DNA of 64,000 nt from Bradyrhizobium sp. CCBAU 051011 (GTDB lineage: Bacteria; Pseudomonadota; Alphaproteobacteria; Rhizobiales; Xanthobacteraceae), in NCBI RefSeq assembly GCF_009930815.1, contig NZ_CP022222.1:1344501-1408500 (forward strand). The letters run 5' to 3'. Position numbers and translations under genes: made by a program. Positions 30,827-62,636 of this stretch are shown piece by piece (position 1 is the stretch's first letter; the number at the start of each line of letters is the position of its first letter). The notes beneath the pieces are model-generated. The model searched no databases. It saw only the letters and a program-made list of their open reading frames with translations, and was not told the origin of the DNA.

Positions 30827-33643
30827 TTACCGGCGCAGCGCCTCAAGCCGCGCTTTCGCCTCCTTGATCCCCGCGGCGTCGGCTTTCGCATAGAGGTCTT
30901 GCGCTTTTGTCGCATCGCCTCGCGTCCCATACGTTCCCCATTTGGCAAGGATCGAGGGATCATAGCTTTCTGCGAGCGAGAAGCTCGCCTGGGCGCTGCC
31001 CATCTCGACGGCACGCTCCAACACAATCCGTGCCGCGCCTATGTCTCCCTGCCTGAGCAGCGCGGTTGCGCGCGCGAGCAACCCTGCCGCCACCGCGGCT
31101 TCCTTCGAATTGACACTGGAATTGGCCTGGGCATCGCCCCGAACGCCCGCAGTTCGTGTTCGGTCAGCAACTGGTTTAACGTTATCCGTAGCCTTGTCCC
31201 GCGCGGTCGAGCCGACCGTCCCGGCATTGGGCGCAGTATGCTTCGCAAGCGCGAGGTCCCGTTCGAGCTGTTCGGACCTGGTCCGCTCCTGCTGCAATGA
31301 ACTGCGTAACGCGGCTAGGTCGCGCTCTGCCGTCTGCCTCGTCCGCGCGGCCTCCTCGCTCGCCCTAGCTATCGAGGCAGTCTGGGTTTCGAGATCGCGA
31401 CGTGCGGTTGCGAGATCCTGTTCCAGCCCCGCCATCCGATCGCGCTCTTCCTGTGCGGATTTGCGAAGCGAAGGCGCGCCGTTAGCGGCCGCCTTTTTAA
31501 GCTCGGCCGTCTCGTCTTCGAGTTTGCGGGTGCGGGCCTCATATGCATAGAGTGCGCTGCGCGTCATCGAGAGGCCTTGCGCAAGTGCGTCGGCCCTTTC
31601 GCGCTCCTTCTGCATCGATTTCCTGAGTTCGGCAGCATCTGCTTCCGCAGCCCGCTTCGCCCGCATGACTGCTTCGGTTGCTTTTGCCGCCAGTGCCGTC
31701 TGAGTTTCGACATCGCGCCGCGTCGCCGCAAGATCCTGCTCCAGCCGCGCGGACCGCTCGCGCTCCTGCTGCAGGGGCTGCTGCAGCTTCGCGTCGCTGC
31801 TCTCGCTTGCCTGTTTCAGCCGGGACGCTTCCTCGGTTGCTTTTGTCGCCAGTACCGTCTGCGTCTCGACGTCGCGCCGCGACGCCGCAAGATCCTGCTC
31901 CAGCCGCGCGGATCGCTCGCGCTCCTGCTGCAGGGGCTTATGGAGCTCCGCTTCGCTGCTCTCACTTGCTTGTTTCAGCCGGGAAATTTCCTCGCTTGCT
32001 TTCGTCGCCAATGCCGTTTGGGTCTCGGCGTCGCGCTGCGCCGCCGCAAGATCCTGCTCCAGCCGCGCGGCCCGCTTGCGCTCCTGCTGCAGCGGCTTCT
32101 GCAGCTCCGCTTCGCTGATCTCGCTTGCTTGTTTCAGCCGGGACAGCTCCTCGGTTGCTTTCGCCGTCAATGCCGTTTGGGTCTCGGCGTCGCGCTGCGC
32201 CGCCGCAAGATCCTGCTCCAGCCGCGCGGCCCGCTCGCGCTCCTGCTGCAAGGGCTTTTGCAGCTCGGCTTCGCTGCTTTCGTTTGCCTGTTTCAGCCGA
32301 GACACCTCCTCGGTTGCTTTCGCCGTCAATGCCGTTTGGGTCTCGACGTCGCGCCGCGTCGCCGCAAGATCCTGCTCCAGCCGCGCGGATCGCTCGCGCT
32401 CCTGCTGCAGGGGCTTCTGCAGCTCCGCTTCGCCACTCTCGCTTGCCTGTTTCAGCCGGGATGCTTCCTCGCTTGCTTTCGCCGCCAAGGCCGTTTGGGT
32501 CTCGACGTCGCGCCGCGACGCCGCAAGATCCTGCTCCAGCCCTGCGGCCCGCTCGCGCTCCTGTTGCAGAAACTTCTGCAGCTCTGCTTCGCTGCTCCCC
32601 GTTGCCTGTTTCAGCCGGGACGCTTCCTCGCTCGCTTTCGCCGCCAGTGCCGTTTGGGTCTCGACGTCGCGCCGCGACGCCGCAAGATCCTGCTCGAGCC
32701 CTGCGGACCGCTCGCGCTCCTGTTGCAGAAACTTCTGCAGCTCTGCTTCGCTGCTCCCCCCTGCCTGTTTCAGCCGGGACGCTTCCTCGCTCGCTTTCGC
32801 CGCCAGTGCCGTTTGGGTCTCGACGTCGCGCCGCGACGCCGCAAGATCCTGCTCGAGCCGTGCGGACCGCTCGCGCTCCTGTTGCAGAGACGTCCGCAGC
32901 TCCGCGTCGCTGCTCCCCCTTGCCTGTTTCAGCCGGGACGCTTCCTCGCTCGCTTTCGCCGCCAGTGCCGTTTGGGTCTCGACGTCGCGCCGCGACGCCG
33001 CAAGATCCTGCTCGAGCCCTGCGGACCGCTCGCGCTCCTGTTGCAGAGACGTCCGCAGCTCCGCGTCGCTGCTCCCCGTTGCCTGTTTCAGACGGGACGC
33101 TTCCTCGCTTGCTTTCGCCGCCTTGGCCGTTTGGGTCTCGACTTCGCGCCGAGCAGCCGCAAGATCCTGCGCCAGCCACTCGGCCCGATCGTGCTCCAGC
33201 TCAAGACGTTGCAGCAACTCGATATCGCGCCTCGCCATGGTGAGTTCGCAGGATAGTGTCTCCGTCCAATCGTATTCTCGTTCCCGAGGCCGATCTGCAT
33301 CACTGGTCGCCGCTTGCGCAACCTGCACCGATCTTTCGTTCCTGCCGCTGCTCGACGGCAAGATCTCGAAGCCGCCATCACCTACCATTCCATCGAAAGC
33401 GAAATTGCGGGCGGTCATCGCATCAGCCGGGTGTCGCGCTTGTTGCGGGGAAGCCTGGGTTTCCGACGCACATGTCATCGCAAGCATGGCCGCGGCTATC
33501 CACGGGTTCGCAGATCGTCCCCGCGTGACCAGGTGCCTCTTGGTCTTCCGCCCAAACGGCGGCTCGTCCAAATCGTGCCCCGACGCTGGTGCGACGGCAC
33601 CAGCGATGTTCATTTCGTCGTTGAGAATTACCGGGCGACCCAT
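30827..33643 (-). CDS. Long coiled-coil protein with twelve 53-residue repeats
   Basis: A 938-residue protein. Residues 33-66 contain basic residues then a hydrophobic run (PWIAAAMLAMTCAS), so it is probably exported or membrane-anchored at the N-terminus. Residues 156-791 are twelve head-to-tail units of 53 residues with consensus RLEQDLAASRRDVETQTALA then AKASEEASRLKQ, SSEAELQK and LQQERERSA; units 2-9 are almost identical, 1 and 10 slightly diverged, 11 and 12 most. The pattern is a long charged coiled coil. The last 90 residues resemble Sel1/TPR repeats (LLARATALLRQGDIGAARIV). The exact function is unknown. It follows the export protein gene on the same strand (253-base gap), suggesting a structural role in EPS export or chain-length control. 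Confidence 0.8.
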   Translation of the reverse strand: MGRPVILNDEMNIAGAVAPASGHDLDEPPFGRKTKRHLVTRGRSANPWIAAAMLAMTCASETQASPQQARHPADAMTARNFAFDGMVGDGGFEILPSSSGRNERSVQVAQAATSDADRPREREYDWTETLSCELTMARRDIELLQRLELEHDRAEWLAQDLAAARREVETQTAKAAKASEEASRLKQATGSSDAELRTSLQQERERSAGLEQDLAASRRDVETQTALAAKASEEASRLKQARGSSDAELRTSLQQERERSARLEQDLAASRRDVETQTALAAKASEEASRLKQAGGSSEAELQKFLQQERERSAGLEQDLAASRRDVETQTALAAKASEEASRLKQATGSSEAELQKFLQQERERAAGLEQDLAASRRDVETQTALAAKASEEASRLKQASESGEAELQKPLQQERERSARLEQDLAATRRDVETQTALTAKATEEVSRLKQANESSEAELQKPLQQERERAARLEQDLAAAQRDAETQTALTAKATEELSRLKQASEISEAELQKPLQQERKRAARLEQDLAAAQRDAETQTALATKASEEISRLKQASESSEAELHKPLQQERERSARLEQDLAASRRDVETQTVLATKATEEASRLKQASESSDAKLQQPLQQERERSARLEQDLAATRRDVETQTALAAKATEAVMRAKRAAEADAAELRKSMQKERERADALAQGLSMTRSALYAYEARTRKLEDETAELKKAAANGAPSLRKSAQEERDRMAGLEQDLATARRDLETQTASIARASEEAARTRQTAERDLAALRSSLQQERTRSEQLERDLALAKHTAPNAGTVGSTARDKATDNVKPVADRTRTAGVRGDAQANSSVNSKEAAVAAGLLARATALLRQGDIGAARIVLERAVEMGSAQASFSLAESYDPSILAKWGTYGTRGDATKAQDLYAKADAAGIKEAKARLEALRR
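31271..33178 (-). repeat. Twelve tandem 159-bp units inside the coiled-coil gene
   Basis: Each unit encodes 53 residues. The central units are nearly identical at DNA level, e.g. the recurring GCGACGCCGCAAGATCCTGC on the plus strand, which implies recent duplication or gene conversion. Copy number is expected to vary between strains. The repeat also creates long but meaningless open frames on the other five frames. Confidence 0.92.
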
Positions 33644-52455: not shown

Positions 52456-53312
52456 TCGCTCAAGAAAGCAACGGTCATGGACCAGTGTCTTATGTCTGCA
52501 GGTGTGCGCGATCCGACAAGGAGATCGCGCGTCGTGCTCGCGAGGACGACGTATCGCGCAGAGTGATGACCTTTCCCGGTATCGGCCCTAGCTCCGCTCC
52601 CGCGATCGCCGCCGCACCGCCGGTCGAGACCTTCGCCAAGAGCCGCGACTTTGCCCAGACGATCGTGGAAGGTGAAAGGCGATAGGGGTACTCCAAAAGG
52701 GGCCGCGCGGGCGCGCATTTTGGACGACAGGGTTCGCGCACACGGGGCTGATTTCGGATATCATTTTCTGGTCCGCCCAAGGACGCGGGAATCACGACGT
52801 TGGGCAGATCCGCAATCAATGCCGCTCGACGCCTGGCATCGGATCGGCGGCGCACAGACCCCATGCCTGCTACGGAGAGACGACACTCCGGACAGGTCGA
52901 TGGAAGTGTACTTGTAGTCGAGCCCCGCGATCTCTCTGCCAGCCTCAAATATTTTGGCGAGTCGAACTATCGACTGTGCGGACGGTGCGTGCACGTGCGG
53001 TCTGAGCCTCCTCTTGTCATCGAAATTGGTAATCCTAAAGGGTCGCGCCGCGGCGCCGGATGACAGACTATGCTGGTGCGCGAGTACATACGCGATGGGA
53101 TAGTGCACCCGTAACGCCAACGACAGTGCTTCGAGATGTGTAGGGCAATGTTCGAACACGACGAACATAGGCTGTTCTCCTCTAACGGGCGTCATGTCGG
53201 CCGAGACATTGTGGAGCGGCAGGCTAGCAATTCGAGAGATCGAGCTGGTCACATCCCTAGTCGTTGATGCGCCGACGAGCCTGGTCGTGCTCAAGCCGCT
53301 CAAGGAGAATAG
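52456..53312. other. Scar region with IS110 remnant, otherwise no recognisable gene
   Basis: An 857-base gap before the epimerase-dehydrogenase fusion gene. The first 230 bases contain a transposase remnant; the rest has no gene I recognise. A 253-codon leftward open frame (52761-53522) runs into the fusion gene and lacks a start signal. Confidence 0.4.
52502..52685 (+). pseudogene. IS110-family transposase fragment
   Basis: The frame reads SDKEIARRAREDDVSRRVMT, then FPGIGPSSAPAIAAAPPVET, FAKSRDFA. The FPGIGP with the following FAKSRDFA run is the helix-hairpin-helix section of IS110/IS116/IS902 transposases. It breaks off at TIVEGERR, before the conserved C-terminal part, and the upstream catalytic half is absent. 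Confidence 0.7.
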
Positions 53313-55553
53313 ATGAAAATCGCAATTCTCGTGGGAACCCGTCCAGAAATCATCAAAATGGCGCCGGTCATTCGCGAATGCCGGAAGCGAAAGCTCGACT
53401 ACTTCATTATCCACTCGAAGCAACATTACTCGGAGAAACTCGACGGGATCTTCTTCTCGGAACTCGCTCTTCCCTCGCCAAACTACAATTTGAATATCGG
53501 CTCCGGAGGTCACGCGAACCAAACGGGTCGCATACTGATTGAGCTTGAGCCGATCTTGATGTCGGAACAGCCCGATGTACTACTCGTTCAGGGAGATACG
53601 AACACCGTGGTGGCTGGCGCACTTGCGGCGCACAAACTTCACATCAAGGTCGGGCACATTGAAGCCGGATTACGCTCGTTCGACCAAACGATGCCCGAGG
53701 AAAGCAACCGAATCATCACCGATCATATTTCCGACTACTTGTTTGCTGTCACCGACTTGCAGGTCGGTCACCTCAAACACGAAGGGCTGCCGGACTCGAA
53801 GATCTTCCAGGTCGGCAACACGATCGTCGACGCCTTGCTTTCTCATCGGGTTCAAGCGGAGAAGAACAGTCGGATTCTCTCTGAACTGCAATTGCAGAAG
53901 CGTGGCTATTACCTTCTTACGTCCCATCGGGCCGCGAACGTCGACGATCCGGACGCCTTGAAGGAAATCATCCAATTGATCACGCGAATTCCCGGTAAAG
54001 TGTGCTGGCCGATACACTATCGAACCCAGAAGGTCCTCAAGGAAAGCAAGGTTGACTTGCCGACCAACCTGGTTTGGACCGAGCCCGTTGGCTATTCGGA
54101 TTTCTTGAACTTGCTTTCGAATTGCACGGCCGTCATTACGGATTCCGGCGGCGTGCAGGAGGAGGCCTGTATCCTCGGCGTACCTTGCGTGACCATTCGC
54201 GATCGCACGGAACGGCCTGAAACCGTCGACGTCGGCGCGAATGTTTTGGTACACCGGAACGCTGAGGCGATGGTGGCGGCCCTCAATCGTCCGATTACAT
54301 CTTGGACGAATCCTTTTGGAGATGGCCACACCGCCGAGAGAATACTTGACATCGTCATGGGTCAACATTCGCGGTTGGCCGCACAAACGCAGGATACCGT
54401 TTGCGTTGCAGGTCTTGGTTACATGGGACTTCCGACCTCCCTCCTCTTGGCGAACTCCGGTGTGAAAGTTACCGGCTTTGATCTCAGCGAAAAGAAAGTA
54501 AACGAGATCAACCGAGGCCACTGCCCGTTCGATGAAAAGGGTATTCCGGAACTATTGACGACGGCTTTGAAGACTGAAAACTTCAAAGCTCAGACGAGAC
54601 CTGTGGCGGCGGACGTTTTCGTTGTGGCCGTGCCAACTCCACACGACAACAAGAAATGCGATTTGTCCTTCGTTCTTTCGGCCGTGAACAGTCTCCTTCC
54701 TGTCATGAAAGACGGCAACCTGCTCATCATCGAATCAACGATCAAACCCAAGACGTGTGAAGATATCGTACTTCCGATCCTACGATCGAAACATCTCAAG
54801 GTCGATGTTGCGCACTGCCCTGAGCGCGCCATTCCCGGCAACACTTTATATGAAATCGTTCACAACGATCGAATCATCGGCGCCAAATCGCCGGAAGCGG
54901 CGGAAAGAGCGGCGCGTCTCTATTCGACCTTCACAAAGGGGACGATTCATCGGACAAATCTGGTGACCGCTGAGTGCGTAAAGCTGATGGAAAACACTTT
55001 CCGCGACGTCAACATCGCATTGGCGAATGAGTTTTCTCTGATTGCTGACAAGTTCAGATTCAACGTCTCGGCTGCGATCAAGCTTGCAAACAAACATCCG
55101 CGCGTTGGTATTTTGCAGCCTGGAATCGGCGTCGGAGGTCACTGTATCGCCATCGATCCTTGGTTTTTGACCGAAGACATCAACGATCTAAATGTCATTA
55201 GAGCCGCCCGCGAACTGAACGACGAGATGCCGAAGCATACCGTCGCGCGAATTCAAGACAAGATCGGTCCAGCAGTTAAGAAGATCGGCATTTTGGGAGT
55301 GAGCTACAAGCCAGACGTCGACGATGCTCGCGAGACGCCGGTTTTGGAAATTGCAAAGATTCTTTCAAAAAAGTACGAAATCCGCTGCCACGACCCCCTG
55401 GTAAAAGATTGGGATTTCGAACTCTTCCCCATCGAAAAAGTCGACGGTTGGGCGGACGTGTTGATTGTCCTTTCTGGTCATAAGGTCTACTCGTCGAAGA
55501 AGTTTGATTCCCCGCTGCTTTCGTTTGACCAAATGATCAACGCGGTCCCATGA
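53313..55553 (+). CDS. UDP-GlcNAc 2-epimerase / UDP-ManNAc dehydrogenase fusion (WecB-WecC)
   Basis: A 746-residue single chain. Residues 1 to about 355 are a non-hydrolysing UDP-GlcNAc 2-epimerase: KIAILVGTRPEIIKMAPVIR, VGHIEAGLRSFDQTMPEESN, TSHRAAN and TDSGGVQEEACILGVPCVT. Residues from about 362 to the end are a UDP-ManNAc 6-dehydrogenase: CVAGLGYMGLPTSLLLANSG, then CPERAIPGN, and the catalytic Cys611 in GVGGHCIAIDPWFLTED. In enterics these are separate proteins (WecB, WecC) that make UDP-ManNAcA in two steps. A clean AAGGAGAATAG site precedes the ATG. Base composition looks lower in GC than the neighbours, and it follows an IS110 scar, so horizontal gain is plausible. Confidence 0.92.
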   Translation: MKIAILVGTRPEIIKMAPVIRECRKRKLDYFIIHSKQHYSEKLDGIFFSELALPSPNYNLNIGSGGHANQTGRILIELEPILMSEQPDVLLVQGDTNTVVAGALAAHKLHIKVGHIEAGLRSFDQTMPEESNRIITDHISDYLFAVTDLQVGHLKHEGLPDSKIFQVGNTIVDALLSHRVQAEKNSRILSELQLQKRGYYLLTSHRAANVDDPDALKEIIQLITRIPGKVCWPIHYRTQKVLKESKVDLPTNLVWTEPVGYSDFLNLLSNCTAVITDSGGVQEEACILGVPCVTIRDRTERPETVDVGANVLVHRNAEAMVAALNRPITSWTNPFGDGHTAERILDIVMGQHSRLAAQTQDTVCVAGLGYMGLPTSLLLANSGVKVTGFDLSEKKVNEINRGHCPFDEKGIPELLTTALKTENFKAQTRPVAADVFVVAVPTPHDNKKCDLSFVLSAVNSLLPVMKDGNLLIIESTIKPKTCEDIVLPILRSKHLKVDVAHCPERAIPGNTLYEIVHNDRIIGAKSPEAAERAARLYSTFTKGTIHRTNLVTAECVKLMENTFRDVNIALANEFSLIADKFRFNVSAAIKLANKHPRVGILQPGIGVGGHCIAIDPWFLTEDINDLNVIRAARELNDEMPKHTVARIQDKIGPAVKKIGILGVSYKPDVDDARETPVLEIAKILSKKYEIRCHDPLVKDWDFELFPIEKVDGWADVLIVLSGHKVYSSKKFDSPLLSFDQMINAVP

Positions 55554-55659: not shown

Positions 55660-56835
55660 CTAACTAGCTGACAGTTGGGGCGACCGACCAGCGCGACCAG
55701 CCAGCGCTCTTTGCTTCGCGAGCAGTGCATCGATGAAGAATTTGGTTGCCCAGTTCGGATATTGCAGAGGAGCATAGCGGCCGTAGATGGGGAATGATCC
55801 CTTGATCCCGCCATAATAGGGCTTCGCCGGCGACATCACGTTCTGCGTCGCAGCAACGTCGTCGAGCAGATTGAGTGCTACGTTGAGGTATCGCTTGTCA
55901 CCATCCAGGCCATAGAGCCTGAAGAACACGATCGCCAATTGCGCGCACCCTGTGAGGCACAGATGCCTCGCGAGAAACTCCCAGTTTTCGCCGATCTCGG
56001 AAGCCAGGCAGCGCTTGGTGTCATAGACCGAAACGATGCGCTCGGCTGCGCGGCGAACGGCAGCGAGGTAGGACGCGCGCCCCGAAATGCAGTGGATCTC
56101 GATTAGCCCTTGCAGCACGTAGGCGATGCCATGTGTGTTGGCGTTCCAGCCTGGCTGGAAAACGTTGTTTAGGAAGAAACCGTTGTCGACTTGTTGCGCC
56201 ACCGTCCAGTCGGCATTGGCGAGCGCAGCCCTTTCATACTTCGTTTCTCCGAGCAGCCTACCTAGGGTCAGCAGCGCCCAGGCGCTTCTGACGTTGTACG
56301 AGTGCACCATGTCGTAGTGCTCGTTGCGCACGAAGGATCCCGTTTCGTCAGCAGATGAGACGATGAAGTCACCCGCCCGCCGCGCGTGCGGGACGAGATC
56401 GTGCCGTCCACGACGTAAGATCAGCGCGTTGAATCCGTGAAGGATTTGGCCGGTGTTGAAGACAACCGGCTTGGTGTCTGGCCAGAGATCGCGCTCGATG
56501 AAGCCGCCACTCGGTTCTTGCAGTCCTGCGAGCCATTCGCCCAGGCGCTCGGCGGTCAAGGCCAAATCAGGTCGTTTGAGGTGATCAGCCACATCCAGGA
56601 GCGTCGGTATGATGTACCCGGTGGTCTCTCGATATGGAGGCAGCCATCCTTTGCCAACCTTATACCCCTTCGAGGACGCACAACCCTTCCCCTGCTCTAT
56701 GGATCGCGTGATGAAGGCGACCGCTGCCTCAAGGTGACGTCGATCATCCGTCAGTCGTTCTGACGTTTTTTGACCTGGGAACTTAATGCGAAAGAAGTCA
56801 CGAACGCTCTCGGCGGCAAAATGAGTCAGCATCAT
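55660..56835 (-). CDS. VpsJ-like alpha/alpha toroid protein
   Basis: A 391-residue helical protein without signal peptide. Recurrent patterns such as GWLPPYRETTGYIIPTLLDV, NTGQILHGFNALILR, SAWALLTLGRLLGE and NTHGIAYVLQGLIEI are the inner and outer helices of an (alpha/alpha)6 toroid. Similar proteins in EPS clusters (named VpsJ in Vibrio) have no proven activity; the fold is shared with sugar epimerases of the AGE family and with some lyases. The RETTGY and HGIAYVLQG segments would face the central cavity. GGGAG lies nine bases before the ATG. It converges with the fusion gene. Enzyme type is not claimed. Confidence 0.7.
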   Translation of the reverse strand: MMLTHFAAESVRDFFRIKFPGQKTSERLTDDRRHLEAAVAFITRSIEQGKGCASSKGYKVGKGWLPPYRETTGYIIPTLLDVADHLKRPDLALTAERLGEWLAGLQEPSGGFIERDLWPDTKPVVFNTGQILHGFNALILRRGRHDLVPHARRAGDFIVSSADETGSFVRNEHYDMVHSYNVRSAWALLTLGRLLGETKYERAALANADWTVAQQVDNGFFLNNVFQPGWNANTHGIAYVLQGLIEIHCISGRASYLAAVRRAAERIVSVYDTKRCLASEIGENWEFLARHLCLTGCAQLAIVFFRLYGLDGDKRYLNVALNLLDDVAATQNVMSPAKPYYGGIKGSFPIYGRYAPLQYPNWATKFFIDALLAKQRALAGRAGRSPQLSAS

Positions 56836-56888: not shown

Positions 56889-57800
56889 CTAGGCCGCAAC
56901 ATATAGCGTTTTGCCGGACGCGGCGGCGGCTCCGAGTGCGCAGTTAATCTCCGACGCCTCAACGCAGTAGAGCGGAACGCCCTTGTACTTCCAAGCCGTT
57001 AGCACGCCCGGGCGAAGCAATCCGGCCAGTCGCTCAATCCTGAGCACGAACTTGTGGGAGAGAGGCGCCGACATCTGGTACGGAATATGCCGGCCGGCAC
57101 CGTCGATCAGGGTAACGCGGATGGGCTCCTCGCGCTCCCGCGGGATAGGGAAGTCGGGACCCATGTGATCCTCGATGGCGTGAACCTGCGTGAGGCTACG
57201 ATAATACTCGGTGCCAACGCCAAGAATCACTGTCTTGTATCGCGCCATCACACCGAACGGTGACAGTGGCCCGCATTCCGCGGAGCTCAGGTGATGGCTG
57301 CGGGTAAGTTCTTCGGCAAGAGGTCCCATCGCGCATACGCTGTGGGTCGGGTGGAGGCTGCGCAAGACGACGCTCAAGTGACGAAATAGCTCGCTCACAA
57401 TTCCCATCTGGGACGGCGTGCGCCGCACGTTGAACAGCGGATTGGCGCGATAATAATCGAGATAGTACTTCTCAGCAGTTCCGAAAAAGAAGGCTGGCAT
57501 GGCCAACGTTCGATCGGGCCCTGTGATGCGCAGGAAGGTCTTGAGCAGTTTGCGGGGATCGTCGCGATACATCGGGGTCAGGCTATTGTAAGAACAATGC
57601 ACCATGAGAATGTCGAAATCATCCGGCAGATGCCGGCGAATCTCGAGCTCAAGCTCGGCCGTCGAGAAGGTCCCGTTCCACGCTTGGATCAGGGGCGTGC
57701 ATTTTAGGCGTAGCCGCCATAGGCGCGACTTGAGATACTGACGCATCGACAGGGAGGTCGCCCGGCGCAGTAGGTAAAAGGCTTCCTTCTTGAGGCTCAA
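56889..57800 (-). CDS. AAC(3)-family N-acetyltransferase
   Basis: A 303-residue protein of the aminoglycoside 3-N-acetyltransferase (AAC(3)) fold. Seen: DDFDILMVHCSYNSLTPMYR (first helix-strand pair), LAMPAFFFGTAEKYYL, the diagnostic SLHPTHSVCAMGPLAEEL with the active-site histidine region, and LILGVGTEYYRSLTQVHAIEDH (with VI for LI). In EPS clusters such proteins probably acetylate an amino sugar rather than an antibiotic; so resistance is not implied. The N-terminus up to residue 45 is basic and may be poorly placed: TTG 57800 sits directly after AAAGGAA, and ATG 57746 is the alternative. Upstream lies an IS3 remnant. Confidence 0.85.
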   Translation of the reverse strand: MSLKKEAFYLLRRATSLSMRQYLKSRLWRLRLKCTPLIQAWNGTFSTAELELEIRRHLPDDFDILMVHCSYNSLTPMYRDDPRKLLKTFLRITGPDRTLAMPAFFFGTAEKYYLDYYRANPLFNVRRTPSQMGIVSELFRHLSVVLRSLHPTHSVCAMGPLAEELTRSHHLSSAECGPLSPFGVMARYKTVILGVGTEYYRSLTQVHAIEDHMGPDFPIPREREEPIRVTLIDGAGRHIPYQMSAPLSHKFVLRIERLAGLLRPGVLTAWKYKGVPLYCVEASEINCALGAAAASGKTLYVAA

Positions 57801-58064: not shown

Positions 58065-58259
58065 CACCTACTAATGACGCGATCCTCAAGCGCCTTCAGC
58101 CGCTTAGCGTCGGAAACCTCCAGCCCGCCGTACTTGGCCTTCCGTTTGTAGAAACGTCGCGTCGAGATCCCGTGCTTGCGGCAGACCGGTCGCCACACCC
58201 GCCTCCTGCTCCTGCAAAATCCCGATGATCTGCTCTTCCGTGAAACGGCTCGGCTTCAT
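58065..58259 (-). pseudogene. IS3-family OrfA transposase remnant, frameshifted
   Basis: From ATG 58259 the frame reads MKPSRFTEEQIIGILQEQEA, a typical IS3-type OrfA start. After GVATG it shifts: the other frame continues CRKHGISTRRFYKRKAKYGG then LEVSDAKRLKALEDR. A loss of two bases (or gain of one) fits. The sequence ends there; the rest of OrfA and all of OrfB are missing. Its ATG overlaps the stop codon of the adjacent glycosyltransferase (ATGA). Confidence 0.85.
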
Positions 58260-59440
58260 GGTCTATCCCTCCCGAGACGAGAGACTCTATCCAGTCTTGC
58301 AGAGTTTGCGGGGCCCGGGTTATATGGCGCGCGTGCCCTCTTATCCGCCAACCCGCGATAAAGGCCGAGATACGCGTTAGTCATCGCATCGAGCGAGAAC
58401 GCTGTTTCAATACGCCGGCGCCCCTTTATACCGAGATCATTGGCAAGCTCAGCGCTATTGAGGAGTTTGAGCACACGATCCGTCAACGCTCCAGCGTCGT
58501 GGCTCGGCACAAGAAATCCCGTCTGTCCTTCCAGGACCAGTTCAGGAGTGCCCCCATCGTTTGTTGCTACGATTGGCTTACCCAACGCCATGCATTCGGT
58601 TATTGCGTTGGAAATACCCTCCCCGTGTAGACGGCTGTTGCTAGCGAGAACTCCCACGGTGAAGAGATTAGCGACACTTTCTATATCTCTCCGCTGCCCC
58701 AGAAACTGTATGCGCAGCGAATGTTCTGGTGGCACGCTAGCGCGCACTTGCCGCAGCGTTTCGCCGTCGCCGACAGCGATAAACGTAACATCGTCCCTAA
58801 GATCGCAAATGCGGCATGCCATTTCGACAAAGGTTGCGTAATCTTTTCTGGGCGTGAAGTTAGCAACCATCCCGACAATATGGGAGGTCGCGATGCCCAA
58901 CATGCTGCGAAGCTCTGCCTCGTCCGTTAAGTTACGGACTCTTGCAGGATTAAAGCCATTGTAGATCGATAGACCCTTGCGCTCCGGAACACGGTAGGCA
59001 GCTAGGCCCGCGCGCGAATTGGCGACGACGATGTCTGAAAATGGGATAGTCAGCTTGCCCATTAAATAGTTCTTATTCCACAGCGTCATATGCGGCGGCG
59101 CGTCTCGCACAAAGCCATTGACGAAGGCCGTGCCGCACAGTTTCGCAACCGGAGCGGCATAAACGGAACACATCGGGCTCCAGGAATGAACGATATCTAT
59201 TTTCAAATTGGAGACCAGCTCGTACAAGCGCTTGAAAAGCCGCAGATCTCTCCTGCCTCTCCGAACGAGCTGAATAATCTGCGCGTATCCAAGGTCAATT
59301 TCGTAACGAACCTCGTCCTCGTCCGTAACCGCGACGAATGACTCTATGTCATGGTGAGGAGAAAGCCCACTCAACAGTTCGACGATTTGTCGTTCTTTCC
59401 CTGCCCGGCGTAGAGACTCAGTAAGGTGCAATATACGCAT
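58256..59440 (-). CDS. Glycosyltransferase family 4, C-terminus ending at an IS3 remnant
   Basis: A 394-residue GT-B glycosyltransferase. It begins MRILHLTESLRRAGKERQIV, a common start in this family; the donor-side half has VGMVANFTPRKDYATFVEMA, HSLRIQFLGQRRDIESVANL and the EX7E-like region SNSRLHGEGISNAITECMAL with GKPIVATNDGGTPELV. The family part ends around YLGLYRGLADKR; the last 25 or so residues (starting ARAPYNPGPANS) run into the IS3 remnant and end at its ATG, so the native tail may be replaced. GGGAG lies nine bases before ATG 59440. It follows another GT4 gene with almost no gap. Confidence 0.87.
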   Translation of the reverse strand: MRILHLTESLRRAGKERQIVELLSGLSPHHDIESFVAVTDEDEVRYEIDLGYAQIIQLVRRGRRDLRLFKRLYELVSNLKIDIVHSWSPMCSVYAAPVAKLCGTAFVNGFVRDAPPHMTLWNKNYLMGKLTIPFSDIVVANSRAGLAAYRVPERKGLSIYNGFNPARVRNLTDEAELRSMLGIATSHIVGMVANFTPRKDYATFVEMACRICDLRDDVTFIAVGDGETLRQVRASVPPEHSLRIQFLGQRRDIESVANLFTVGVLASNSRLHGEGISNAITECMALGKPIVATNDGGTPELVLEGQTGFLVPSHDAGALTDRVLKLLNSAELANDLGIKGRRRIETAFSLDAMTNAYLGLYRGLADKRARAPYNPGPANSARLDRVSRLGRDRP

Positions 59441-59441
59441 G

Positions 59442-60611
59442 TCAGCGCTCTCCCGGGTGGACTGATTCAGTCCAAATCGCAACGAGGCGTTCAGCGCAAA
59501 TTTCGATGGCTAACCGGCTTCTATGTAGAGTCCTCCCGTTCTCTCCCAATCGCTGTCTCAATTCGGGATCGTCAATGAGGCGCCCCAATGCAGCAGCAAG
59601 TCCTTCGACATCACCGGGCTCGACGATCAGTCCAGTCCTCTCGTGCTCAATGAGCTCTGGAAGTGCCCCCACTGGGGTACAAACGACGGCCGCGCCGTGA
59701 GCCAAGGCCTCAATCACCGCCATCGGAAGATTTTCGCTAAAGGACGGGAGCACCAGAATATTGGCCGCGCGCAAAAGTGCCTCAACCTGCGCTGGACCGA
59801 CCCAACCTGGCACCGAGATACGATCGCCAAGTCCAGCTCGCTCAACTGCGGCTCTCGTATCGCTCACCGCACCGTCACCTGCGAGCGTGGCCCTCCAGCC
59901 GGACTTTGAATCCAAGCTTGCCAACGCCCTCACAAGTTCCGGCACACCTTTTCTTGGCCCGAGTCGTCCCAAAAAGAGAATGCTGGCTGCCTGCTTCATG
60001 ATGTTCGGATCTTTGAAGTCAGCTGTTCGTGAAGCATTCGGAACAATGACAATCCTTGCAGAGCAATCCGGTACTCTGTCCGCAACAACCTGCTTCCAGT
60101 AATTGCCAAGCACAATGATCTTTTGGCTACTGAGAAACATCAGATCTATTTCTTTCCTCAGAATACTGCGCCGAGAATCCCAAAACTGATCAAACTGATC
60201 GCTATGTAGATGGAGCACATACGGCAATCGGCAAATTCTTGAGATGCGGGCCAAGATGAGCTTGCGATACGTGCTGCCGAACGCCGACAGATTTATATGT
60301 ACAGCATCCACTCGTCCGAGCAGCCGAAGCAGCACCAGACGTATAATTGCCTGCGCAAGAAATAAGGGCGACAATAGTATCGAGCCGGCACCCCGAGTTG
60401 AGACAAAACAGACGTTTACGTTTGCGAAGCGATCCACCTGAAGCGCGCAGCGCAGTTCGTCCATCATCCGGCCCATGCCTCCATGGCCACCTGTGCCTTC
60501 GGCATTAAAGATGACCACTCGAAGCGGACCAGCTGCCTGCTCAATGGATTTAGTTTCGCTGATGCGAGCTTTGTCTGTCTGTGTCCGGTAGCAAACCAAC
60601 GAGGTCGTCAT
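59442..60611 (-). CDS. Glycosyltransferase family 4
   Basis: A 389-residue GT-B glycosyltransferase. The N-terminal half has VVIFNAEGTGGHGGMGRMMD, a glycine-rich acceptor-side loop, and DAVHINLSAFGSTYRKLIL. The C-terminal half has ILFLGRLGPRKGVPELVRAL, WRATLAGDGAV and the EX7E-like LPSFSENLPMAVIEALAHGA with AVVCTPVGALPELIEHERTG. Both halves are full-length, so it should be active. ATG 60611 is used; an in-frame TTG at 60617 precedes it. The stop lies one base before the start of the next GT4 gene, so the two are co-translated. The sugar donor is unknown. Confidence 0.9.
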   Translation of the reverse strand: MTTSLVCYRTQTDKARISETKSIEQAAGPLRVVIFNAEGTGGHGGMGRMMDELRCALQVDRFANVNVCFVSTRGAGSILLSPLFLAQAIIRLVLLRLLGRVDAVHINLSAFGSTYRKLILARISRICRLPYVLHLHSDQFDQFWDSRRSILRKEIDLMFLSSQKIIVLGNYWKQVVADRVPDCSARIVIVPNASRTADFKDPNIMKQAASILFLGRLGPRKGVPELVRALASLDSKSGWRATLAGDGAVSDTRAAVERAGLGDRISVPGWVGPAQVEALLRAANILVLPSFSENLPMAVIEALAHGAAVVCTPVGALPELIEHERTGLIVEPGDVEGLAAALGRLIDDPELRQRLGENGRTLHRSRLAIEICAERLVAIWTESVHPGER

Positions 60612-60758
60612 GTTCAAGCTCTTATCCCCGGGGGCTAATGTCTGCTCAGATCCAAATCACGCCACGTAGGTGCTCCGACGTGATTTGGAGATTGACGTCG
60701 AAACAATTCGATTGGCCAAGCTTCGCAGACGGATACAAGAGGCAGGAGCCGGCTCTTT

Positions 60759-62636
60759 TCATGTTGCTATCTTGAATGTACGCAAGAACATCTCGAGATT
60801 TATCACCGACCAAAGAACCTTTTCGTGGTTCTGCCGACCGCTCAGGTGCTCTGCAACAAGCCTACGAAGCTTGGAGCCGCTTATCATTCGCGCTACACCG
60901 GAACTTTCGCTCACAAGCATGTCCTGTACGAAATCCTGGTAAGGGCCCCTGAACCATTCTGCGACGGGCACACGGAATCCGACCTTTTTTCGCCGCAGGA
61001 TGGACTGTGGCAGGATCTTGTCCATTGCTGCCCGCAGCACGGTCTTGCCGCCCTTGCCTCTCGTCAGAAACTCGTCCGGAAAGCGCGCTACGACGCCGGC
61101 CAGCATCGTATCCATGAATGGCATCCGCCCCTCGATCGACCCTGCCATCATCATCCGATCGCCGCGTTCCAACAGATCATCAGGAAGCCAAGAAGTCTGA
61201 TCGAAGAACAATGTACGCCGTAGACTAGATTCGAGCCCAGACGAGTATGGATAGACGTCCGGCGGCGTTGCCGAGAGGCGGCGGCCGAGCATCGCCTCAG
61301 CTTCAGCAACTGAAGTGCCGCCAAACCAGACCCGCATGCGGTTCACTAGGTCGCGTTCGCCCGCCGCCAATGCAAGAATCTTTACGCGCCTCATTCCGTA
61401 AGGCAATGAGCGGACCAGCGGATAGATTATCCGCTCGTGAAGCAAGTGTGGCATCAGCCATTGATACAGACCGATCCACTGCTCGGCCCGATGCTTCGCA
61501 TATCCTCCCATCAACTCATCAGCGCCTTCTCCCGTGAGTACCATCTTCACGCTACGAGAGGCCATTTCCGAAAGCATGAAGATCGGAACGTCAGATGTCT
61601 CGCTTACCGGAGCCCCCCGGCGCAAGACGGCAGTTGACCAATGCTCCATGAAAGCATCGGGTTCGACGAATAGTTCATTGTGAATTGTGCCAAACTGACC
61701 TGCAATGGCACGCGCGTGATCGAGCTCCGAATACTCCGCTTCCCGAAAACCGACTGAGAACGTTCGCACAGGCTCGGCACTATGCTTAACCATGGTTGCC
61801 ACGACTGCCGAGGAGTCGACACCACCCGAAAGATAGGCTCCGAAAGGTGCGTCGCTACGCATACGAATTCGGACGGCCTCATCGAATGTGTCTTCGAACA
61901 AACGAATTGCATCACCGAATGATTTGACTTCCGGTATCGTCGTCGCAACTGGCGGCGTAAAATAGCGTGTCGTTTTCAGCGTTCCATTCTGCCATACGGC
62001 ATAGTGACCAGGCTGCAGCTTCCTCACCGCACGAAAGAACGTGAGAGGCCCCGGAACATAACGATTGAGAAGATAGTGGCCCAGTGCCTCGAGGTCGAAC
62101 GCTCGGCTGAAGCCCGGAAACTGAACGAGCGGCTCAATCTCCGAGCCGAAGAGAAGACCGCCCTGCAGCTCGGCGAGAAACAGCGGCTTTTTGCCGAAGG
62201 CATCGCGAGCCAGCACCAGGCGCTGCTCTGCTTCATCCCACAGAGCAAAGCTGAACATGCCGCGAAATCTACCTACGGCGTCGAGGTGCCAAGCGCGATA
62301 TGCTTCGATAAGCACTTCGGTATCTGAGTTCGTACGAAAGCGATGACCACGGGCGACAAGTTCCTGTCGCAGTTCAAGGTAGTTATAGATTTCGCCGTTG
62401 AAGATTAAGGTGAAGCGGCCATCCTCGCTCGACATTGGTTGCCCGCCGCCACCGATATCGATAATCGAAAGCCGGCGGTGGCCGAAGCCGATTTGAAATC
62501 GCTCGTCAGAGGTATCGTGAAGCCAGTAGCCGGAGCCGTCCGGCCCCCGATGAAACATGAGATCCGTAAGGCCGATGAGTGTCGTGCGATCCTGACGGTT
62601 CGTGGCCCCAAGAACCCATCCAAAGATCCCACACAT
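60759..62636 (-). CDS. asnB: Asparagine-synthetase-like amidotransferase, second copy
   Basis: A 625-residue two-domain enzyme with Cys2 (MCGIFGWVLG), FHRGPDGSGYW, IFNGEIYNYLELR and the PP-loop SGGVDSSAVV at about residue 268. Later TGEGADELMGGYAKHRAEQW is present. It is a distant paralogue of the protein at 41.5 kb, not a recent duplicate: the two differ in length and in most positions outside the motifs. As in that case, amide formation on a uronic acid of the polymer is plausible, but free asparagine synthesis cannot be excluded. It reads in the same direction as the two GT4 genes, 147 bases ahead of them. Confidence 0.9.
   Translation of the reverse strand: MCGIFGWVLGATNRQDRTTLIGLTDLMFHRGPDGSGYWLHDTSDERFQIGFGHRRLSIIDIGGGGQPMSSEDGRFTLIFNGEIYNYLELRQELVARGHRFRTNSDTEVLIEAYRAWHLDAVGRFRGMFSFALWDEAEQRLVLARDAFGKKPLFLAELQGGLLFGSEIEPLVQFPGFSRAFDLEALGHYLLNRYVPGPLTFFRAVRKLQPGHYAVWQNGTLKTTRYFTPPVATTIPEVKSFGDAIRLFEDTFDEAVRIRMRSDAPFGAYLSGGVDSSAVVATMVKHSAEPVRTFSVGFREAEYSELDHARAIAGQFGTIHNELFVEPDAFMEHWSTAVLRRGAPVSETSDVPIFMLSEMASRSVKMVLTGEGADELMGGYAKHRAEQWIGLYQWLMPHLLHERIIYPLVRSLPYGMRRVKILALAAGERDLVNRMRVWFGGTSVAEAEAMLGRRLSATPPDVYPYSSGLESSLRRTLFFDQTSWLPDDLLERGDRMMMAGSIEGRMPFMDTMLAGVVARFPDEFLTRGKGGKTVLRAAMDKILPQSILRRKKVGFRVPVAEWFRGPYQDFVQDMLVSESSGVARMISGSKLRRLVAEHLSGRQNHEKVLWSVINLEMFLRTFKIAT

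Follow-up and report, generated by a model that had tools for sequence, protein, structure and literature searches.

A conserved WecB–WecC fusion in Bradyrhizobium sp. CCBAU 051011 and other bacteria, with UDP-ManNAcA as its predicted product

The window, a 64,000-nucleotide stretch of the genome of Bradyrhizobium sp. CCBAU 051011 (NZ_CP022222.1, positions 1,344,501 to 1,408,500), carries a gene in which a WecB-type epimerase and a WecC-like dehydrogenase are joined in one reading frame. Fused WecB–WecC proteins of this kind are a real, conserved and under-annotated family, in biochemical terms a joined form of a known enzyme pair, and the fusion is not unique to the window. A single-chain WecB–WecC enzyme with UDP-ManNAcA as its product is the best-supported interpretation, its substrate, step order and product being predicted from sequence. 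Taking the lines of evidence jointly, we consider it highly probable that the gene encodes a bifunctional UDP-ManNAcA-making enzyme for exopolysaccharide, derived from an archaeal-type wecB–wecC pair that was fused in a bacterial ancestor and spread laterally.

Domain layout and predicted activity of the fused protein

The features of the gene and its immediate surroundings are given in Table 1. Pfam placed Epimerase_2 at residues 22–348 of the 746-residue protein, followed by UDPG_MGDP_dh_N (362–532), the central dehydrogenase domain (552–637), and the C domain (659–729). According to NCBIfam, the first half passed the wecB model TIGR00236 (residues 1–349, 374.1 bits, cut-off 210.15), and the second half passed the NDP-sugDHase model TIGR03026 (residues 362–729, 385.4 bits, cut-off 189.8). 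The single-chain fusion proposed in the first-pass annotation is therefore borne out by the open frame and by domain matches in both halves. The top-scoring specific models for the dehydrogenase half were the WecC equivalogs NF008286 and NF040825, although both scores were under the cut-offs (322.3 against 459 and 316.8 against 750 bits, respectively); for this reason the half is termed WecC-like, and its substrate is not settled by the model. The window genome, a single contig of 9.1 Mb, carries the fused gene once. Its best further matches were a separate TviB-like dehydrogenase, also within the window (33–35% identity), and a separate WecB-like gene outside the window (33–36%), followed by four weaker dehydrogenase matches.

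Table 1. Coordinates of the fused gene, its parts, and nearby features in the window.
Feature	Position	Strand	Remarks
IS110-family transposase remnant, outside the fusion	52510–52655	.	146 bp; 86.7% to an IS110 transposase annotated on a Bradyrhizobium plasmid
Shared upstream stretch	52975–53312	+	Present in L015 and L016, the closest named relatives: 93% with L015 (from 52984); 91% with L016 (from 52975)
Fused wecB-wecC gene	53313–55553	+	Single ATG-to-stop frame, 746 residues
Epimerase half, WecB-type non-hydrolysing UDP-GlcNAc 2-epimerase	53313–54362	+	Residues 1–350; TIGR00236
Linker	54363–54392	+	Residues ~351–360
Dehydrogenase half, WecC-like nucleotide-sugar dehydrogenase	54393–55550	+	Residues 361–746; TIGR03026
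Cys611 codon	55143–55145	+	GGHC motif
Downstream polysaccharide genes	58256–62636	-	Two GT4 glycosyltransferases and an asparagine-synthase-like amidotransferase

In an alignment of 37 rows picked from the fused matches, four catalytic-type residues were invariant in each half. In the epimerase half, these were D95, E117, E130, and H205, which we take to be catalytic from the E. coli enzyme, and in the dehydrogenase half K557, N561, Cys611, and D615, presumably the catalytic residues of this domain. Both halves had been described as full and Cys611 as catalytic; the invariance of Cys611 agrees with the latter, but the dehydrogenase half is somewhat short at its C-terminal end, where the Pfam C domain aligned to position 80 of 103. 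In comparison with the Bradyrhizobium loci L015 and L016, the epimerase half had dN/dS values (NG86) of 0.11 and 0.06, respectively, and the dehydrogenase half values of 0.03 and 0.07; both halves appear to be under purifying selection. The AlphaFold model consisted of two well-formed halves (mean pLDDT 88.9, pTM 0.52), with low confidence in the linker at residues 352–358 and values also below 50 at residues 610–612, around the catalytic Cys. Because of the low-confidence linker and the pTM of 0.52, the model does not fix how the two active sites are placed relative to each other. Among the relatives, the linker varies in both sequence and length. The top Foldseek matches were the M. jannaschii UDP-GlcNAc 2-epimerase and the S. 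aureus UDP-ManNAc dehydrogenase Cap5O.

In the proposed mechanism, the N-terminal half would interconvert UDP-GlcNAc and UDP-ManNAc, and the C-terminal half would oxidise UDP-ManNAc at C6 to UDP-ManNAcA with NAD+, through Cys611. The equilibrium between UDP-GlcNAc and UDP-ManNAc is unfavourable and the oxidation chemistry is essentially irreversible; the near-irreversible second step would thus drag the epimerisation forward. Putative channelling of UDP-ManNAc from one site of the fused protein to the other is possible. The first-pass prediction of UDP-ManNAcA synthesis is supported by the domain models, the conserved residues and the structure matches, but the scores of the dehydrogenase half under both WecC equivalog cut-offs count against it.

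These low WecC scores also leave room for the reverse order of steps, in which the dehydrogenase half would make UDP-GlcNAcA first and the epimerase half would then work on the uronate, like the WbpI-type epimerases, whose substrates are diacetamido uronates. The epimerase half does resemble UDP-diNAcGlcA 2-epimerases (289.6 bits), but the M. jannaschii UDP-GlcNAc 2-epimerase scores higher (395.9 bits), the TIGR00236 wecB model was passed, and the TviB model, which represents a UDP-GlcNAc dehydrogenase, gave only 126.1 bits on the dehydrogenase half against 322.3 for WecC. Moreover, the TEWVEL-type motif by which a WbpI-like member would be recognised, present in the uronate-type epimerase 8sxy, is replaced in the epimerase half by TERPET, as in M. 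jannaschii WecB. This motif may mark the substrate of the epimerase, and together with the scores it favours UDP-GlcNAc, rather than a uronate, as the predicted substrate; we regard the reverse order as improbable. Slightly less probable still is a protein in which one half alone works as an enzyme and its partner persists as a remnant with a structural or regulatory role, as the short C-terminal domain could suggest, given that neither half varies at its catalytic-type residues in the 37 rows from fused matches and that both appear to be under purifying selection. A sequencing or assembly artefact masking a stop codon has a practically negligible probability, being already refuted by independent genomes: 12 further Bradyrhizobium records share the unbroken frame, as do 54 of the 80 loci kept from the genome scan, and dN/dS is low in both halves.

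Genomic neighbourhood and polysaccharide clusters

The fused gene is surrounded by genes encoding a WcaJ-type sugar transferase, a Wzz-like protein, GT4 transferases, and asparagine-synthase-like amidotransferases. The use of UDP-ManNAcA for exopolysaccharide is therefore likely, and the nucleotide sugar would be supplied to glycosyltransferases encoded in the exopolysaccharide cluster around the gene. A point against this proposal is that a recognised ManNAcA transferase was not seen adjoining the fused gene; three WecG-family genes are located elsewhere in the window genome. The flanks of the fused gene vary between Bradyrhizobium strains, with relatives of the GT4 gene at 59442–60617 in 10 and relatives of the amidotransferase gene at 60759–62636 in 8 of the 13 Bradyrhizobium loci, window included.

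Several other genes of the window were recorded. Next to the fused gene but on the other strand, the segment 47924–50233 encodes a TviB-like dehydrogenase (457 bits, cut-off 592) and a sugar-nucleotide epimerase; it is also present in L015 and is a possible second uronate route. The 391-residue protein encoded at 55660–56835 is conserved in this place beside the fused gene in three loci, window included, and matched nothing in Pfam or NCBIfam at the thresholds applied. It is followed at 56889–57800 by a gene for an AAC(3)-family (Antibiotic_NAT) protein that scored far under all listed NCBIfam resistance cut-offs; judging from its setting, a role in resistance is less likely than one as a sugar N-acetyltransferase. 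Farther away, the region 31001–33000 has a very strong negative AT skew (-0.33, -0.47) across the 938-residue ORF at 30827–33643.

In Gammaproteobacteria, the fused gene has a different setting. At the Colwellia locus L042 (6147–16092), the XrtA-associated hydrolases 2 and 1 are situated upstream of the fused gene and two PrsT proteins are encoded downstream, all of them over their NCBIfam cut-offs. When counted by similarity to the L042 proteins (the curated models having been applied to L042 alone among the counted marker genes), a PrsT relative started within 1.2 kb downstream in 25 of the 35 gammaproteobacterial fused loci and a hydrolase-1 relative lay within 5 kb upstream in 20; at least one XrtA marker was thus present in 27 of the 35 loci and none in eight, counts in which some contigs end early and single matches to the TPR-rich PrsT may be unspecific. 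Three neighbours taken from loci L027 and L062 gave no XrtA protein over the NCBIfam cut-offs. The PrsT-like gene that follows the fused gene points to predicted XrtA/PEP-CTERM polysaccharide clusters in Gammaproteobacteria. In the window genome, the sole exosortase match is distant from the fused gene, in a region of ~65 kb away from the window (G000:C1:9010634-9075871) that also contains a WecG-family gene and the separate WecB-like gene, and the amidotransferases of the window are under the cut-off of the XrtA model. The more extended proposal, that a laterally spread synthase, fused from an archaeal-type pair and passing UDP-ManNAc directly between its sites, supplies the XrtA/PEP-CTERM polysaccharide of Colwelliaceae, is rather unlikely when all its parts are taken together; if true, the sugar make-up of this polysaccharide would include ManNAcA.

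Distribution and origin of the fusion

A protein search with the 746-residue query returned 4699 matches and one with the Acidobacteriota member returned 7804; in each case the best 120 all have both PF02350 and PF03721, in searches that took only proteins of similar length and thereby favoured fused forms. One shorter protein among the best 120 of the 4699, P0092, is without the dehydrogenase C domain. Species genomes were scanned with a pair of short peptide patterns, and of the 323 relatives recovered the best 80 were kept as loci. The 54 fused loci are all bacterial and comprise 12 from Bradyrhizobium, 35 from Gammaproteobacteria (mostly Colwelliaceae), five from Bdellovibrionota, and one each from a Myxococcota and an Acidobacteriota MAG. 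The 12 Bradyrhizobium loci (L015–L026) show 81–97% identity to the window protein and those outside the genus 49–58%. In eight of the 12 (L017–L023 and L025), the C-terminus extends ~30–50 residues beyond that of the window protein, several of these tails being basic in the 37-row alignment.

The 26 non-fused loci are 23 archaeal and three bacterial, and none of the 23 archaeal loci is fused. Fourteen of the 23 have the epimerase and the dehydrogenase as separate frames, ~120 bp or less apart in 12 of these 14, and a dehydrogenase frame was not found in the locus DNA of the other nine at the threshold used. In archaeal loci L072 and L090, the gene order is reversed, with the dehydrogenase before the epimerase, and haloarchaeal plasmid records, such as L097, have adjacent separate genes. 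Among the bacterial loci, L071 has the epimerase half, then a stop, and no dehydrogenase was found in its 6.25 kb, while L085 (7974–10242, Bdellovibrionia) has separate epimerase and dehydrogenase genes that overlap by 8 bases; these two are real bacterial exceptions to the fusion. The third, L070, was set aside as uninformative, its contig stopping where the epimerase half ends. A one-piece match on an S. meliloti plasmid (H19) was rejected as a fusion after it resolved into two distinct genes.

In the epimerase tree, the fused rows formed one group with L070, L071, and L085 (support 92), and the starred branches force at least three state changes, L070 with its contig end being counted as split. 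In the dehydrogenase tree, L085 is the single addition to the smallest group that contains every fused row (support 97 after midpoint rooting), and the starred branches force two changes. A tree of both halves, with 34 chosen loci and the query, united the 22 fused rows and L085 (SH-aLRT 100) and grouped L085 with Bdellovibrionota (supports 92 and 94). All three are quick trees, and the branch of L085 is long. The likeliest history is a single fusion of an archaeal-type wecB–wecC pair, followed by spread. The adjacent pair would have become one frame in a bacterial ancestor and the fused gene would then have spread laterally, including to a few Bradyrhizobium. Since L085 sits among fused rows in the tree of both halves, one fusion and a later split is the simplest account, under which L085 is possibly a secondary split. 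The fusion may instead have arisen more than once, as suggested by the unfused bacterial L085 and L071, by the forced state changes, and by AU p values for a fused-only clade of 0.0456 in the dehydrogenase tree and 0.0706 in the both-halves tree.

Arrival in Bradyrhizobium by lateral gain is plausible, as the patchy occurrence of the gene among kin fits such a gain. With the window genome included each time, a match was present in 8 of 146 genomes of the genus sample at E ≤ 1e-100 and, at E ≤ 1e-150, in 2 of 398, 1 of 397, and 1 of 385 genomes of the phylum, order, and class samples, respectively, with at most two candidates per genome scored in the latter three. The gain had originally been proposed from an IS110 scar and a low GC content. 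The remnant is real, and further copies exist in the genus, the Pfam match to Transposase_20 being weak and under its cut-off (E 0.017); but it lies ~660 bp upstream of the fused gene and has no match in the 12 other Bradyrhizobium loci (~8 kb per side, less at contig ends). L015 (Bradyrhizobium iriomotense) has the fused gene between the same neighbours, and L016 (Tv2a-2) has ~350 bp upstream and the downstream genes in common with the window, both without the scar; a further match, G083, showed 90% over positions 520–857 of the queried upstream stretch. Being distant and absent from the relatives' loci, the remnant does not explain the gain, and an IS110-borne origin was rejected. The lower GC content was confirmed but is mild: the gene has 0.523, whereas 35 ORFs of ~200 residues or more, chosen mechanically, average 0.585 (sd 0.034), and only one of them is lower. 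Low GC was discarded as proof of gain because GC3 (0.633 against 0.685, sd 0.072) and codon distance are ordinary, so that base composition backs lateral gain only weakly.

Relation to known systems

Enterobacterial WecB and WecC follow the same pathway to UDP-ManNAcA as separate proteins; the epimerase half of the fusion passes the wecB model, whereas the dehydrogenase half is under the WecC equivalog cut-off. The closest solved relative of the dehydrogenase half is S. aureus Cap5O (3ojl; 38% in the structure alignment), which is itself unfused. For the epimerase half, the nearest solved structure is the archaeal WecB of M. jannaschii (4neq), and that of Pyrococcus horikoshii (4r16) is also related. 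The archaeal relatives of the fused gene are split, mostly into neighbouring genes. The M. maripaludis proteins MMP0705 (WecB) and MMP0706 (WecC) are described as forming UDP-ManNAc and then UDP-N-acetylmannosaminuronate (PMC2952790); the two activities are those predicted for the fusion and the locus numbers are consecutive, but the enzymes are two proteins and not one chain. Likewise, in a Tannerella forsythia glycan cluster, wecB, wecC, and asnB are separate genes (PMC6120980).

The first-pass annotation had allowed that many close relatives with the fusion might already be described; such relatives are indeed numerous in databases, but no description of a WecB–WecC fusion was found in the open-licence literature searched, where absence is weak evidence. 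Among the matches listed, those fused proteins that have a name are nearly always named for the epimerase only, mostly "UDP-N-acetylglucosamine 2-epimerase", some of the names being truncated. Such names conceal the second activity and make UDP-ManNAcA production easy to overlook when genomes are annotated. For the Bradyrhizobium genome alone, the fusion would mean one exopolysaccharide precursor gene. As a family, the fused proteins would provide a natural way of making UDP-ManNAcA with one chain and a system in which to ask whether fusion speeds the unfavourable epimerisation; they would also hint at what polysaccharide the Colwelliaceae XrtA/PEP-CTERM clusters make. The fused proteins of Colwelliaceae, Bdellovibrionota, and other groups share the architecture of the window protein, and in Colwelliaceae, in contrast to the window, the gene is often situated beside XrtA/PEP-CTERM genes.
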